Shown here: piece by piece, positions 33,201 to 39,418 of the stretch
Layout of the letters: each line of letters opens with the position of its first letter
How positions within the stretch are numbered: the first letter of the stretch is position 1
Source: Christensenellaceae bacterium
GTDB taxonomy: Bacteria; Bacillota; Clostridia; Christensenellales; UBA1750
DNA length: 53,863 nt
Reading direction: 5' to 3'
Assembly (NCBI GenBank): GCA_031280685.1
Contig: JAITGM010000046.1
Coordinates: 1-53,863, forward strand
The notes under the pieces: model-generated
Database searches by the model: none
Seen by the model: the letters and a program-made list of their open reading frames with translations, nothing else
What the model was told of the DNA's origin: nothing
Made by a program: the position numbers and the translations under genes

Positions 33201-34784
33201 CTAGTCTTCCCCCATGTGCTTCATCGTAAGGCTGCAAAGCTCGTCGATGTGGATCTTTTCTACGCCCAGAATCTGCGTCTGCAGCTCGCCGCCGAAAGCC
33301 TTGGTCCATTCCTCCGGAATTCGCTCGGCGCTGATCATCATGCCGATGATGGAGCCCACCGTGGCGCCGTTGCAGTCGGTATCAAAGCCGCAGCCCACAG
33401 CCAGGCAGATGGACTTGCCAAAGTTTTTCCTTCCCCAAAGCAGCGCCATGACGATGATCAAGGCATTGGAAATGGTATGGCACCAGTGGTGCGCGTCGTG
33501 CTCATCCCAGCGGGCATGGATGAAGGCATAGGCCTCCTCGGCGCTCCTGCCCTCGTCATAAAAGGCCAGCAGTGCGCAAATTTGCTCATAAAGCCTCGAT
33601 CGCTCGGGGATTTCCTTCAACCCGCAGGCGATCACGGCGCGAACATCGTCTAAAACGGCGGCGGCCGAGAGCATCGCGGCCACGAAGATCTCGCCATAGA
33701 TGCCGTTTTTCACATGAGAAACCGAGGCGTCGCGCCAGGCCATTTCGGCTGCCGCCTCGGGCTTGCCGGGGTTGATGTAGCCATAATAGTCCGCCCGGAT
33801 CTGCGCGCCGATCCACTCGCGATAAGGGTTTTTGTGCACGGCGGAAATCGGCGGCTCGTAGCCGTTGACGAAGTTTAGGTAGGCTACGCGCTCGGCCGTG
33901 CAATAGGCCTTCTTGGGCTGGCAGTCCACCCAGGCCGCGAGCACATCAAAGGGCTTGAAGTCCCTGCCATGGCGCTCTAAAATCTGCGTGGCGGCCATCA
34001 CGGTATAGTTCGTGTCGTCATCCGCCGGGGCGCCGTCTATCGTATCCGCCCAGCAGCGCCCACGCAGGTGGAAGCTGATGCGCGCATAGAGTTCCTCGTT
34101 CAAATCCTTCTGCAGCACGTAGCGGCGCAGCGGGTAGTTGCCCGTGGCCTTTAAAAGCTCGTTCAGTTCGCCCGTGCGAATGCCTTCAAGCGGCTTGCCC
34201 AGCAGGCAGCCCGCGATACGCCCCAGCCATGCGCCCTTAATCTTCTCTGGCAGAGCCTTTTTATCGGGCTTGGGCAGGAACCTGCCGCCGGGATGGCGGC
34301 AGGCCTTGATTCCGTCCAGATCTGAGGGCTCGTAATAAGCATAGCCCTCGCGCAGCGGCCGCGAAAGCAGGATCTGCGCCAGCGCCTCGACCATCGTTTC
34401 CCTTTCGGCGGTGAAGGGCAGCGCCACAAGCTCCTCCACAAGCCTTTTATAGCGCTGAACATCGCGGCCCTCGTCAAAAAGCTGCTGGTACTCCACCAAA
34501 AAGTCGGCCGAGTAGAGATCCCAGGGGTGCATCGCCGCGTAGTTTGGCTGATCCTTGACGCGCCTTTCCTCAGCCGTGCGGCCGGAATCCTCGACATCGA
34601 TGAGTTCATCCAGCTTCATGCCGAAACGGCGGCAGATGAGCACCAGCCGCTCAAACTCGGGAACCGACGCGCCGGATTCCCATTTTTGCACGGCCTGGCG
34701 TGATACGCCGAAGATTTCGCCCAGCGCCTCCTGCGAAAGACCCGCTTTGACCCTGGCCGCCGCGATTTTGCCCCCGATGCCCAT
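33201..34784 (-). CDS. Xre HTH - ADP-ribosylglycohydrolase fusion
   Basis: 527 residues. An N-terminal Xre-type HTH (about 5-60; LSQEALGEIFGVSRQAVQKWESGASVP) is followed by a helical linker and an ADP_ribosyl_GH domain (about 185-515). The domain has GAWLGRIAGCLLGKPLEG at its start, ADDDTNYT near 250 and GFDTDCNGATVGSI near 466, which supply the Asp residues that bind the two Mg ions of the DraG/ARH fold. It probably removes ADP-ribose from a macromolecule or metabolite and may bind its own promoter. ATG 34784 with GAGGGGATT is preferred over ATG 34874, which precedes the promoter. No ADP-ribosyltransferase is nearby. Confidence 0.87.
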   Translation of the reverse strand: MGIGGKIAAARVKAGLSQEALGEIFGVSRQAVQKWESGASVPEFERLVLICRRFGMKLDELIDVEDSGRTAEERRVKDQPNYAAMHPWDLYSADFLVEYQQLFDEGRDVQRYKRLVEELVALPFTAERETMVEALAQILLSRPLREGYAYYEPSDLDGIKACRHPGGRFLPKPDKKALPEKIKGAWLGRIAGCLLGKPLEGIRTGELNELLKATGNYPLRRYVLQKDLNEELYARISFHLRGRCWADTIDGAPADDDTNYTVMAATQILERHGRDFKPFDVLAAWVDCQPKKAYCTAERVAYLNFVNGYEPPISAVHKNPYREWIGAQIRADYYGYINPGKPEAAAEMAWRDASVSHVKNGIYGEIFVAAMLSAAAVLDDVRAVIACGLKEIPERSRLYEQICALLAFYDEGRSAEEAYAFIHARWDEHDAHHWCHTISNALIIVMALLWGRKNFGKSICLAVGCGFDTDCNGATVGSIIGMMISAERIPEEWTKAFGGELQTQILGVEKIHIDELCSLTMKHMGED

Positions 34785-34820
34785 AGCAATCCCCTCTCTA
34801 TCCGTTGATTTCTTAAGCGC

Positions 34821-34849
34821 AGTGTAGCAGGCAGGCCCCAAAGACGCAA
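34821..34849 (-). promoter_or_regulatory. Promoter of the Xre-ADP-ribosylglycohydrolase gene
   Basis: On the minus strand TTGCGT (34849-34844), 17 nt, TACACT (34826-34821), about 40 nt before the ATG. Confidence 0.65.
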
Positions 34850-34867
34850 TCAACCAAGGGTAGCGGA

Positions 34868-34888
34868 AAGGCAACTTTTAGTTGCCTT
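34868..34888. terminator. Hairpin after the ABC permease pair
   Basis: AAGGCAAC (34868-34875) and GTTGCCTT (34881-34888) around TTTTA. No T-tract follows on the minus strand, so function as a terminator is uncertain. Confidence 0.45.
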
Positions 34889-34900
34889 CCCCAAAGCCAG

Positions 34901-35698
34901 CTAGCTGCTCGCGCTCTTGTAGTTTTTGAGCCCCAGGCGCCAAAACCAGAGCGCAAAGGCGGTGAAGCCGGCCACGATGGCCAGCGCGTAGGCAAGCCCC
35001 TGGGGCTTGAGCACCCCGCTCAGCGCCTCGGTGGGCACCGTGGCCATCAGGCCATAGGGCAGCGCGAAGCAAAACAGCAGCTTAAAGCCGCCCTTGTACA
35101 GCACGCCCGGTATTTTGAAGTTCAGCGTCAGCATGTCGCCCTCCAGGTGGTTGATCGCGTCGGCCGCAATCACGAAAAAGGGAATGGTGCGCAAAATCAG
35201 CTCCATATCGCAATAGAGCAACGCCATCGCCAGCAGCAGCCCGATAAAGCCAAGCAGCAGCGGCAGGCTGACGGCGATGCCCTCGAGCGCAGCGCCGCGC
35301 GCGATGATCAGGCCGCTGAGGAGCAGCAGCGGCGCGGAGCCCAAATCCACGCTTTCAAAGCAGATGCGCAGCAGCGGACTGCCGGGCTTCGTCAGGTAAA
35401 GATCCAGCCCGCCCTCCCTGATCTTGCGCGGCAGCTCGATCAGCCCAAAGAAGCAGAGCAGCATGCTCAGGCCGTTGAGCATCGAAAAGCTGCCGATGAA
35501 GATCATCATTTGCCCCCGGCTCCAGCCGCCGATGCCGTCCACCTGGCCATAGATCAGCTCAAAGGCCAGCATCTGCGTTAAAAACAGCGCCCCGTCGGCA
35601 AAAAACGAGCCGAAGAAGCTCAGGCGAAACACCATCTGCCGCGTCAGGCGCAGCTTGGTCAGCAGCCAAACGAAGCGAAGCGAACGCAGAAAGCTCAT
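34901..35698 (-). CDS. ABC-2 type permease (COG3694-like)
   Basis: 265 residues with six membrane segments, matching the DUF990/ABC-2 permease family that accompanies COG4586 ATPases. It begins within the stop of the upstream permease (4-nt overlap). Together the two form the membrane channel of an exporter of unknown substrate. Confidence 0.85.
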   Translation of the reverse strand: MSFLRSLRFVWLLTKLRLTRQMVFRLSFFGSFFADGALFLTQMLAFELIYGQVDGIGGWSRGQMMIFIGSFSMLNGLSMLLCFFGLIELPRKIREGGLDLYLTKPGSPLLRICFESVDLGSAPLLLLSGLIIARGAALEGIAVSLPLLLGFIGLLLAMALLYCDMELILRTIPFFVIAADAINHLEGDMLTLNFKIPGVLYKGGFKLLFCFALPYGLMATVPTEALSGVLKPQGLAYALAIVAGFTAFALWFWRLGLKNYKSASS

Positions 35699-36492
35699 AT
35701 GCCCACCCCGTCGTACTGGACGCGCAGCCTTTCATAGAGGAGCCTGTTGGCGGCCAAAAACGCAGCCGTCCAAAGCACCAGCACCAGAAGGCCCTTGAGC
35801 CCCTCGCCAAGGCCCGCCCGCCCGGTTAGCAGCATGGCGGGCAGATAACCAACCTGCGAAAAGGGGAGCAAATTCAGCAACTCGAGCACCGTTTTGGGCA
35901 AGAGAGACAGCGGTAGCATCGCGCCCGTCGCGAGGGCGATCAAATTGCCCTGCAGGTGCAAAAAGAAGTTGATCTCTTGAAACTTGAAGGCCAGCAGCCC
36001 GACGAAAAAATGGTAGCTCACCATGAAGACCAGCCCCAGGGCGCTAAGGCAGAACGCGCAGAGCAGCGCCGCTGGTTCCGCGCCAAAGCCCATTCGGATT
36101 TGAAACAGCAGCGCGCCAAGCAGCGCCGCCAGCAGCGCAAACAGGGCGTAATAGAAGCTCGCGCCCAGGCTCTGCGCCATGAACTGCAGCTGTGGGCTCG
36201 CCGGCAGCACCATAAACTTAGAAAACGTGCCGCCGCGAATGCGCTCGTTCAGCTCAAAGCTCACGCCCGAGGACTGATCCATGGAGGAAAGGAAGGAAAC
36301 CACGAGGTAATAGCCCAGCATGCCGCCAAAGTCAAAGCCGCTCACGCTTTCTTGCCCCTGGAAGATCGCGCCCCAGAGGATCCAGGCGAAGAGCAGCTTC
36401 CAAAGCGTGCCCAGCGCGGTCATGGCCACGTCAAAGCGATAGACGATCTGCGCCTTAAAGGCGGTTTTGGCGATAGCAAAGTACTTTTTCAT
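35695..36492 (-). CDS. ABC-2 type permease (COG4587-like)
   Basis: 265 residues, six membrane segments, starting MKKYFAIAKTAFKAQIVYRFDVAMTALGTLWKLLF, the typical start of this permease family. ATG 36492 overlaps the ATPase stop by 4 nt; the upstream ATG at 36633 would lie inside the ATPase gene. It pairs with the next permease and the ATPase. Confidence 0.87.
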   Translation of the reverse strand: MKKYFAIAKTAFKAQIVYRFDVAMTALGTLWKLLFAWILWGAIFQGQESVSGFDFGGMLGYYLVVSFLSSMDQSSGVSFELNERIRGGTFSKFMVLPASPQLQFMAQSLGASFYYALFALLAALLGALLFQIRMGFGAEPAALLCAFCLSALGLVFMVSYHFFVGLLAFKFQEINFFLHLQGNLIALATGAMLPLSLLPKTVLELLNLLPFSQVGYLPAMLLTGRAGLGEGLKGLLVLVLWTAAFLAANRLLYERLRVQYDGVGI

Positions 36493-37304
36493 GCCTTTTC
36501 CCCCATCGCGTAGATCCTCTCGACCACCAGGCCGATTTCCTCGCCCTCCTCCTTTTGGAAGCGCCGAAAGAGCGCGTCCGTGCCGCCGTCGTAGAGCTTT
36601 TTCCCCTCGCCGACCACCACGCTGCGCTTGCAAAGGCTTAAAACGTCTTCCATGTAGTGCGAAGTCAGCAAAATCGTGGTGCCCTTCTGCTCGTTGACCT
36701 CGCGCAGAAAGAGCCGCATCTGCCGCTGGGCCACCGCGTCAAGGCCGATGGTCGGCTCGTCGAGGAAGAGCAGTTTGGGGTCGTGCAGCAGCGCCGCAAC
36801 CAGCTCCATCTTCATGCGCTCACCCAGGGAAAGGCTGCGCACCTGCACATTCAACAGCTCTTTCAGGTCAAAAAGCTCCACAAAGAAGTTCAGGTTCCTT
36901 TTGTAGTTCTCATCGCTGATGCCATATAGCTCTTTGAAAAGACCAAAGGTATCGGCCGCGGTCAGCTCAAAAAAGAGCTGGCTTTTTTGCCCCATCACCA
37001 CGGCATATTGGCGCTTGAAGGCGTTTTGCAGCCTGTTTGGCCAAAAGCCCAGCACCTCGATTTCGCCGCTTGTGGGCGCGATGATGCCCGTGAGCATCTT
37101 CACCAAGGTCGTCTTGCCCGCACCGTTCGGGCCGATCAGCCCGACGAACTCGCCGGGCTCCACGTTAAGGTCGAAATCGCTTACGGCGAGCTTTTCGCTG
37201 AATTCGCGCTTAAACAGCGATTTAACGCTGCCCAGCAGGCCCGGCTCCTTCTCGAAGCGGCGAAATGCCTTGGTCAGCCCCCTCGTTTCGATGATCGGCC
37301 TCAT
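36489..37304 (-). CDS. ABC transporter ATP-binding protein (COG4586-like)
   Basis: 271 residues. Walker A GPNGAGKTTLVK near 56, signature LSLGERMKMELVAALLHDP near 160, Walker B LLFLDEPTIGLD near 180. The N-terminal insert with GSVKSLFKREFSEK is typical of the COG4586 type that works with two ABC-2 permeases. Its ATG overlaps the rsgA TGA by 4 nt, so all four genes are probably one transcript. Confidence 0.93.
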   Translation of the reverse strand: MRPIIETRGLTKAFRRFEKEPGLLGSVKSLFKREFSEKLAVSDFDLNVEPGEFVGLIGPNGAGKTTLVKMLTGIIAPTSGEIEVLGFWPNRLQNAFKRQYAVVMGQKSQLFFELTAADTFGLFKELYGISDENYKRNLNFFVELFDLKELLNVQVRSLSLGERMKMELVAALLHDPKLLFLDEPTIGLDAVAQRQMRLFLREVNEQKGTTILLTSHYMEDVLSLCKRSVVVGEGKKLYDGGTDALFRRFQKEEGEEIGLVVERIYAMGEKA

Positions 37305-38350
37305 GGCTTGCCGCCCCCCTTCTTGCGCCGCTTATTAAAGGCCGCAATCTCCTTATTCCGCTTGCGCTTTTCGCCCAAAAAGGCGTTTTTATCCTCGGCA
37401 AAGCCCACTTCGCGCCGAAGCTTCAAATAGGCCTGCCAGCTTCTTTCGTCAAGCTCGCCGCTCGCAAGCGCCTGCCGCACCGCGCAGCCGGGCTCGCCTT
37501 TGTGCGAGCAGTCGGCAAAGCGGCAGCGCTCAAACAGCGCTTCAATGCCCGCGAAAGTTCCGCTCACGCCCTCTTCGGCGTCAAGGAGCCCAAGCTCGCG
37601 CATGCCCGGCGTGTCGATGACCATCACGCCCGAGGGCAGCAGGAAGAGCTGCCTGTGCGTGGTGGTGTGGCGGCCGCGGCTGTCGTCCTCCCGAATGCCG
37701 GCCGTGCCCATGACTTCCCGACCCATCAGCGCGTTTAGAAGCGAAGACTTCCCCACACCCGACATGCCCAAAAAGACCAGGGTTTTTCCGGGCAAAAGGT
37801 AGGGCGCAAGCTCGTGCATGTTGAGCCCCGTTTTCACCGAAAGCGCAATCGCCGCAACCCCTTGGCAGGCAGCGCGCACTTTTTCTAGCCTTTCGGCCCA
37901 ATTCTCGCACAAGTCGGCCTTCGTCAGCAGAACCACGGGCTCGGCGCCGCTCATGCGCGCCTGGCTCAAATAGCGCAGAATGCGGGCGGGGTTAAAGTCC
38001 TGGTTGAGCGAGGAAACAACAAAAACCGTGTCGAAGTTCGCGGCGACGAGCTGCTCAAACGCAATCCCTCTGGGCCCCGCCTCGCGCCGCCAGAATTTTG
38101 AACGCCTGGGCAGCAGCTTGTGGATGAGCGAAGGGCCGCTGGGGTTGAACCGCAGCAGCACAAAGTCGCCCACGCAGGGCAATTCGCCCCACCCGGCGCC
38201 GTGCAGCAGCGCGCCCCTTGGCTGCGCCTGCACTTCGCCTTGTTCACAAAGCACCGTCCAGCTTTCGCGCCTCAATTCAACCACGCGCCCCGGAATCAGT
38301 CCATCCGCAAACGCTTCCGGGCCGTCATAGCCATATTGCATAAGCTTCAA
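37301..38350 (-). CDS. rsgA: Ribosome small subunit GTPase RsgA
   Basis: 349 residues, a circularly permuted GTPase that acts late in 30S assembly. An N-terminal OB-fold is followed by the G4 motif TKADL, then G1 GMSGVGKSSLLNAL, G3 DTPGM, and a C-terminal zinc site (CRFADCSHKGEPGC). The C-terminus is very basic (KRRKKGGGK). The likely start is TTG 38350, 8 nt after AAAGGAG; ATG 38341 is three codons in. It heads an operon with the ABC exporter genes. Confidence 0.94.
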   Translation of the reverse strand: MKLMQYGYDGPEAFADGLIPGRVVELRRESWTVLCEQGEVQAQPRGALLHGAGWGELPCVGDFVLLRFNPSGPSLIHKLLPRRSKFWRREAGPRGIAFEQLVAANFDTVFVVSSLNQDFNPARILRYLSQARMSGAEPVVLLTKADLCENWAERLEKVRAACQGVAAIALSVKTGLNMHELAPYLLPGKTLVFLGMSGVGKSSLLNALMGREVMGTAGIREDDSRGRHTTTHRQLFLLPSGVMVIDTPGMRELGLLDAEEGVSGTFAGIEALFERCRFADCSHKGEPGCAVRQALASGELDERSWQAYLKLRREVGFAEDKNAFLGEKRKRNKEIAAFNKRRKKGGGKP

Positions 38351-38394: not shown

Positions 38395-38597
38395 AAAAAA
38401 GGATACGACAGCCATCGTATCCCATTCCCTGCGGTTTTACGAAAGGTTCCCGTTCTTTCGGCGGGCACAAACAAAAGAGGCAGCGCCCCTTCGCTCAGAT
38501 CCCGCCGGTTTTATGTGGTTTTAGGGCACAATCACCTTTGCTGCCGACATCAAACCACACTTCCTTTCGTCATCGGCCCTCAAGGGGCCTTGCTATG
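38395..38597 (-). ncRNA. Candidate structured noncoding RNA, unidentified
   Basis: A region of about 200 nt between hisF and rsgA without a plausible reading frame. On the minus strand a consensus promoter (38633-38604) predicts a start near 38597. The transcript would contain a 5' hairpin GGCCC/GGGCC, a long-range closing helix ACGAAAGG (38570-38563) with CCTTTCGT (38446-38439), and inside it two hairpins: GTGTGGTTT/AAACCACAT (38560-38552 with 38521-38513) and CGGCGGG/CCCGCCG (38507-38501 with 38465-38459). An intrinsic terminator ends it: GGATACGA/TCGTATCC plus six T (38422-38395). I cannot match it to 6S RNA, tmRNA, RNase P RNA or a riboswitch class by eye. It could be a standalone RNA or an attenuator/riboswitch ahead of rsgA. 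Confidence 0.6.
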
Positions 38598-38603
38598 GCC
38601 AAG

Positions 38604-38633
38604 AGCATACCACAACAAAAGGCGGGAGCGCAA
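38604..38633 (-). promoter_or_regulatory. Promoter of the candidate structured RNA
   Basis: On the minus strand TTGCGC (38633-38628), 18 nt, TATGCT (38609-38604). Confidence 0.65.
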
Positions 38634-38662
38634 GCCCTCGCCTCAAACTTTGGCAAAAACCC

Positions 38663-39418
38663 CTAAATTCGCATGCAAATCCCGCGCGAGGCGAGCTCGC
38701 GCTTGAGCTCCATGATTTCAAGCTCCTTAAAGTGAAAGAGCGAGGCGGCCAAAGCCGCGTCGGCTCCGGCGTGGCTCAATACGTCATAAAAATGCTTCAC
38801 CGCGCCAGCGCCGCCCGAAGCGATCACGGGAATATCGACCGCCGAGCAAATCGCGCGGGTGAGTTCCAAATCATAGCCGGTCTTGTGGCCGTCGGCGTCC
38901 ATCGAGGTTACGAGCAGCTCACCAGCGCCCTTTTGCGCCACGAGCTTAGCCCAGTCCACGGCGTTCATGCCGGTGGATTTGCGCCCGCCGTGGGTGTAGA
39001 CCTCCCAGCCGATGGGCGAGCGCTTGGCGTCGATCGCCACCACCACGCACTGGCTGCCATAGATCCGCGCCGCGTCGCGAATCAGCGCAGGGCTGCCCAC
39101 CGCCGAAGAGTTGATCGAAACCTTTTCGGCCCCGGCATGCAGCAGCATCGAAAAATCCTCCACGCTGCGGATCCCGCCGCCAACGGTGAAGGGAATGGAA
39201 ACCGCCCTTGCCACCTTGCGCACGGTTTCGAGCATGATAGCGCGATCGTCGCTGGTCGCGGTGATGTCCAAAAGCACGAGCTCGTCGGCTCCGGCTTCGT
39301 CATAGGCCCTGGCGCACTCCGCAGGGTCGCCGGCATCCACGAGATCCACGAAGCTCACGCCCTTGACCACGCGGCCGTCCTTCACATCCAGGCAGGGAAT
39401 GATGCGCTTAGCGAGCAT
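38663..39418 (-). CDS. hisF: Imidazole glycerol phosphate synthase cyclase subunit HisF
   Basis: 251 residues, a TIM barrel. The catalytic aspartates are present in [14 protein letters not shown] (Asp near 11) and [10 protein letters not shown] (near 130), with the phosphate-binding TVGGGIRS and ASGGAG motifs. With HisH it closes the imidazole ring and releases AICAR. It overlaps hisH by 11 nt. No other histidine gene is in the window. Confidence 0.94.

Follow-up and report, generated by a model that had tools for sequence, protein, structure and literature searches.

A uORF-bearing leader upstream of accessory rsgA genes, a probable ribosome-controlled transcription attenuator missing from Rfam

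Introduction

What occupies the 312 nt that separate hisF (38663-39418, minus strand) from rsgA in this Christensenellaceae genome? A sequence-only reading of the window, by which we mean the whole stretch of 53,863 nt that was analysed, had described the gap as a gene-free region holding a structured RNA, either a trans-acting regulator of the Hfq type or an attenuator of the rsgA-ABC exporter operon. Our analysis points to the latter. The element, which like all features described below lies on the minus strand, is probably the 5' leader of the operon comprising an accessory rsgA (rsgA2) and ABC exporter genes, acting in cis as a ribosome-controlled transcription attenuator, and its sequence suggests that a block in protein synthesis most likely makes it switch on rsgA2 and genes for handling drugs. 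The widely conserved cis-acting attenuator family to which it belongs is real and is missing from Rfam and from the literature searched; its cargo and architecture are new, while the mechanism is of a known kind.

Promoter and anatomy of the leader

Behind hisF lies a terminator-like hairpin (38614-38642; GGCGaGGGC-TTGC-GCTCcCGCC followed by TTTTGTT), which is perfected in G001, the only same-genus genome found, where the element is kept at 83% identity. The promoter proposed earlier, TTGCGC-18-TATGCT, survives in its -10 half, which is conserved in G001, but not in its -35 half, since TTGCGC (38628-38633) falls in the loop of this hairpin; the promoter is therefore best seen as one of the extended -10 type, TGGTATGCT (38604-38612), retained in G001 as TGGTATGAT. 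A TGnTAwnnT motif was present 20-70 nt upstream of the Shine-Dalgarno (SD) sequence in 30 of 79 copies of the element, compared with 8% of shuffles. Immediately upstream of the SD is a 5' hairpin, P0 (GGCCC-CTTGA-GGGCC, 38575-38589), and strong hairpins occupied this place in 22% of copies versus 6% of shuffles. The minus strand folded to -90.1 kcal/mol (z = -5.0), a value equalled by none of 200 shuffles, and the plus strand folded less well (z = -3.1). The structural features named beforehand (5' hairpin, 8-bp helix, inner hairpins and terminator) were all recovered on the minus strand.

The gap is not devoid of genes, however, as it holds a conserved uORF of 9 codons, MSAAKVIVP* (38521-38550), upstream of an intrinsic terminator, with the counterpart MSVAVVISA* in G001. 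Of 79 copies, 78 have an ORF of 8-15 codons suitably spaced from the SD, and 73 of these start with ATG. When the stop was fixed from the conserved sequence around it and the frame of the first ATG in a suitable position was checked, the start agreed with the stop in 63 of 64 testable copies against the one third expected by chance. The peptides themselves are unconserved save for a valine at the fourth residue from the end, in most cases after E, K or M, and the run of regulated-amino-acid codons that marks the leader-peptide attenuators of amino-acid operons is absent from them. Within the uORF is an internal SD-like motif, AAGGTG (38533-38538), exactly 9 nt before the stop, and a six-base motif ending in GGTG (or GGTA) keeps exactly this distance in 69 of 78 uORFs despite their variable length. 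This fixed AGGTG may keep ribosomes that are terminating away from the SD, or it may belong to the sensor. Sequence following the stop, AACNGAATA, is conserved in homologues as well.

The SD of the uORF, ACGAAAGG (38563-38570), forms the 5' arm of helix P1, and its GAAAGG is nearly invariant; the 3' arm, CCTTTCGT (38439-38446), with a nearly invariant CCTTTC, is an anti-SD strand that also supplies the 5' strand of a proposed antiterminator. Because relatives share the same layout of GAAAGGA, short ORF, hairpin, ACCTTTCG and terminator, the 8-bp helix previously regarded as a long-range closing helix is an SD:anti-SD helix that hides the ribosome-binding site of the uORF. Across 63 aligned sequences, pairing in P1 was kept in 96.1% of cells, with double changes in 7 cells at two outer pairs (C-G to U-A and G-C to A-U), and its covariation score exceeded those of all 500 shuffles, although kinship among the sequences inflates these and all other pairing and conservation tests, and the alignment leans towards P1. 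That the compensatory change in P1 is limited and its inner pairs barely vary follows from one of its strands being an SD.

Compensatory changes of the kind that had been predicted thus exist, limited in this closing helix and abundant in the CGGCGGG hairpin, P2 (38459-38507), whose basal helix pairs CGGCGGG (38501-38507) with CCCGCCG (38459-38465). In other copies the P2 arms read GGCATAC/GTGTGCC or TGGAACA/TGTTCC, among others. RNAalifold on MAFFT alignments recovered P1 alone, missing P2 because it begins at differing offsets, and P2 pairing was then tested by arm swapping: true arms averaged -13.2 kcal/mol and swapped arms -10.0, with none of 2000 permutations doing as well. The hairpin that encloses the uORF, GTGTGGTTT/AAACCACA(T) (38513-38560), is genus-specific, none having been seen in other genera, whereas the remaining helices are widely conserved. 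The leader ends in the intrinsic terminator T1, GGGATACGAT-GGCT-GTCGTATCCT with a T tract (38395-38423), and a T1-type terminator lies upstream of the gene in most homologues.

Distribution of the element

Named genomes were scanned using an alignment of the rsgA2-type RsgA subtype, and the element was found upstream of accessory rsgA in Christensenellales, Oscillospiraceae, Clostridia, Paenibacillus, Lysinibacillus, Aquibacillus, Anaerocolumna, Clostridium and others. The tie to hisF noted in the window holds within this genus and breaks down in other genera, where hisF is not beside the element; two further genera of the family have the element upstream of the orthologous rsgA and away from hisF. 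A covariance model (R1) built from 16 seed copies, excluding the window and its genus and with P1 as its only structure, scored the window at 38 bits, with E = 1.6e-4 over a search space of 866 kb, and had matches in front of roughly half of the 80 related RsgA loci. Context-free scans detected the element in 20 of 291 class-level genomes, a few matches being weak or due to chance, in 11 of 297 from the order and in 8 of 398 from the phylum. In Paenibacillaceae it was present in 26 of the 100 genomes sampled, and its occurrence in Clostridia is scattered. Plasmid searches for the element were negative. One model match in G095 (L178/L193) and short DNA matches of low identity (e.g., in G035 and G046) look like chance.

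No Rfam 15 family, riboswitches, 6S RNA, tmRNA, RNase P and the T-box included, matched the element above gathering score, either in the window or in 11 homologous loci, which upholds the suggestion that the RNA lies outside established families; at permissive thresholds the search returned chance matches only. The papers searched on rsgA leaders, drawn largely from outside the subscription journals, give no account of the element.

Genes downstream of the element

The first gene behind the leader, rsgA2 (37301-38350), encodes an accessory RsgA-type 30S GTPase of 349 aa (PF03193, E = 3e-48). A second, shorter rsgA of the same genome (G000:C30:25296) has no copy of the element. Next come the ATPase of a DrrA-like ABC exporter (36489-37304), homologues of which are found directly behind the element elsewhere, and two ABC-2 permease genes (35695-36633 and 34901-35698; PF06182). 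In two genomes besides that of the window (L182/L184 and L216), exporter homologues follow the element without an intervening rsgA. The gene run behind the exporter ends with a Cro/C1-type HTH fused to an ADP-ribosylglycohydrolase (33201-34874).

Of the 79 copies, 64 have rsgA2 no more than 1.6 kb downstream, a proportion biased upward by the many copies found through rsgA. Other cargo comprised ABC-2 exporters, APH-fold phosphotransferases, which stood alone or behind rsgA2, and also GNAT acetyltransferases, SAM methyltransferases, a CD3324-family protein and a MoxR/VWA pair. In two Paenibacillaceae loci (L253 and L255), what appears to be a single operon behind the element continues from rsgA2 into an APH-fold phosphotransferase gene. 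None of the controlled genes tested passed the cut-off of a named resistance family, so that the label 'drug-handling' rests on fold. In Streptomyces, a second RsgA paralogue (SCO6149) depends on WblC and is switched on upon tetracycline exposure (PMC7157823), which supports a stress role for accessory RsgA.

Proposed mechanism and alternatives

The model proposed here takes its parts, namely the uORF, P1, P2, the terminator, the complementarity between anti-SD and terminator, the conservation and the kinds of controlled genes, from the sequences themselves. We infer the signal and the order of events as follows. By default, with the uORF already translated or untranslated, the SD GAAAGGA would pair with the anti-SD CCUUUCGU; P1 would sequester the anti-SD, T1 would form and transcription would end after about 190-210 nt. 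A ribosome held at the uORF start, for example by an initiation-stalling inhibitor, would cover the SD, and the freed anti-SD CCUUUCGUA would then pair with the SD-like UACGAUGG in T1; T1 would fail to form, and rsgA2 and the exporter would be transcribed. Translation inhibitors would accordingly be expected to induce the operon, and its products may relieve translation stress. Stalling at the start of the uORF is proposed as the signal because the layout resembles the vmlR and cplR leaders described below and because of the SCO6149 precedent.

The pairing on which this switch would depend involves TACGATGG (38412-38419), which lies in the ascending arm and loop of T1, is complementary to the anti-SD strand and would complete the antiterminator. 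Complementarity to the anti-SD averaged -5.6 kcal/mol for terminators of the element and -3.2 for 661 control terminators (p = 8e-14), and an SD-like motif was present in 59% of element terminators compared with 8% of the 661 controls from the same loci; look-alikes of the SD in the ascending arm and loop included CGAA.GG, CGATGAAGG and CGGAAAGG. Scrambled anti-SD strands, on the other hand, fitted the terminators almost as well on average, with 31 of 200 as good, and shuffling of the terminator arms made no difference (-5.0 vs -5.0 kcal/mol), in part because that test picked second terminators in some loci. We regard the complementarity as support for a switch, short of proof. Nascent folds with the uORF start masked paired CCUUUCGUA with UACGAUGG in the window, and an equivalent pairing appeared in L088. 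In the window the antiterminator is weaker than the 10-bp T1, which the full-length minimum-energy fold retains even with the uORF start blocked; since T1 is the more stable in the finished transcript, antitermination would have to be kinetic, taking place during RNA synthesis. A second terminator is common in homologues and absent from the window; the stretch following the anti-SD pairs with its 5' arm, with covariation that none of 2000 permutations reached, and the complete switch in such homologues may control two terminators in a row.

Several other readings of the element were considered. One of them, in which the leader responds not to drugs but to ordinary translation or the availability of 30S subunits and places RsgA2 in a small-subunit feedback loop, draws on the main cargo being a 30S-assembly GTPase and on the uORF amino acids, unconserved save for the valine near the end, which imply that no specific amino acid is sensed. 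Frequent initiation at the uORF would keep the SD occupied, tying rsgA2 expression to an abundance of 30S subunits, or, alternatively, unproductive initiation complexes would accumulate. Exporters, APH-fold kinases, GNATs and methyltransferases as cargo are nevertheless better suited to drug stress, and we consider this reading unlikely. The fixed AGGTG 9 nt before the stop counts against a simple start-codon stall, as such a model does not need it. In another reading, the signal is a ribosome paused by this motif at the end of the uORF, under termination or release stress. The constant spacing of GGT (plus the next base) in 69 of 78 uORFs and the conservation of AACNGAATA would both fit, but a ribosome at the stop leaves the SD bare so that P1 could re-form, and the complementarity between anti-SD and terminator would then lack an obvious trigger; this makes pausing at the end a distinctly improbable account.

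Conserved nucleotides outside the helices, AACNGAATA and GAATACTG, would be expected of a metabolite riboswitch or protein-binding leader that contains an ORF by happenstance. Happenstance would hardly preserve the reading frame between start and stop in 63 of 64 copies or place the SD itself inside a helix, however, and GAATACTG is partly explained as the antiterminator of the second terminator in homologues; with no riboswitch family matching either, we give such a leader very little credence. Least probable of all, by a narrow step, is a trans-acting small RNA with its own gene ending at T1. The promoter, 5' hairpin and terminator would serve one, and the attenuated transcript would be a stable RNA of about 200 nt, yet the element is translated, sits before a same-strand gene of varied cargo and shows no conserved unpaired seed besides the uORF and the anti-SD. 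Terminator-ended, uORF-carrying copies before same-strand genes across phyla lend no support to the Hfq-type option raised earlier, and the anatomy of the element and its fixed same-strand position argue for cis action. The alternative offered alongside it, attenuation of the rsgA-ABC operon, has strong support and corresponds to no Rfam family.

Comparison with known leaders

Ribosome-controlled attenuation of the kind we favour has experimental precedent: in vmlR and cplR, ribosomes stalled by a drug on the leader uORF relieve attenuation (PMC9226507; PMC10201436). In Bacillus subtilis, the vmlR leader, which responds to such stalling, has a uORF in an upstream anti-antiterminator hairpin and an intrinsic terminator, as here, along with an antiterminator of the kind proposed for our element, but its uORF is Met-Ile-Asn and its cargo an ABCF protein (PMC9226507), whereas our element has uORFs of 8-15 codons with a fixed internal AGGTG and carries RsgA2, an exporter, a kinase or an acetyltransferase; our family is further defined by its central P2 hairpin and by the invariant pairing of GAAAGG with CCTTTC. 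The leaders of cplR in Clostridioides difficile, which responds to retapamulin and lincomycin, and of lmo0919/vgaL in Listeria share the uORF, anti-SD and terminator, and differ in their MR[I/M] tripeptide uORF, their ABCF cargo and a terminator that also hides the SD of the main gene (PMC10201436). More generally, the features of ARE-ABCF-type attenuators are present here in the short uORF with its own SD, the SD/uORF region in a helix and the upstream intrinsic terminator; the cargo, being RsgA2, ABC-2 exporters, APH kinases, GNATs and methyltransferases, includes no ABCF ribosome-protection protein.

Another related leader is the uORFC-6-1 motif upstream of hflX in Bacillales, a uORF and covarying RNA before a ribosome-acting GTPase that is a proposed sensor of stalled ribosomes (PMC8632094). 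That motif has a conserved Arg-Leu-Arg peptide and a structure lying wholly downstream of the uORF start, while our element has the SD itself within a helix and no RLR. The toiL uORF of Escherichia coli, which senses many classes of ribosome-targeting antibiotics via stalled ribosomes, resembles the mode of action proposed for our element, but controls translation and Rho termination (PMC12121999), where the element has an intrinsic terminator.

A broader proposal, which we advance tentatively, is that these leaders form a Firmicutes-wide family of uORF attenuators dedicated to the state of the small subunit, in which ribosomes trapped at the uORF start induce a stress paralogue of RsgA, the checkpoint GTPase of 30S assembly, together with drug-modifying or drug-exporting proteins. 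If so, RsgA2 would be an inducible ribosome-protection factor of a kind undescribed in these bacteria, and the internal SD before the uORF stop would be part of the sensor. The family also yields a list of genes that are probably switched on under translation block, among them accessory RsgA and uncharacterised kinases, acetyltransferases, methyltransferases and exporters, which become candidates for intrinsic resistance or ribosome protection.

Variant copies

Several copies depart from the arrangement seen in the window. In L087, L088 and L080, for example, a second terminator lies downstream of the element, with pairing between its 5' arm and the segment behind the anti-SD such as CTGCTGTT with AACAGCAG. 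Two diverged copies (L186 and L187, in G169 and G237) carry the uORF MKKTI[FC]CEVLYI* and precede a pair encoding a MoxR ATPase and a VWA/metallopeptidase protein, in place of a gene linked to ribosomes or drugs. Four Christensenellales copies before a GNAT acetyltransferase (L220, L222, L223 and L226) are without T1 and have the second terminator only, with the anti-SD shortened to AACTTTCGG (AACTTCTG in L220); in L226 the gene that comes next is a GNAT/beta-lactamase-like fusion.
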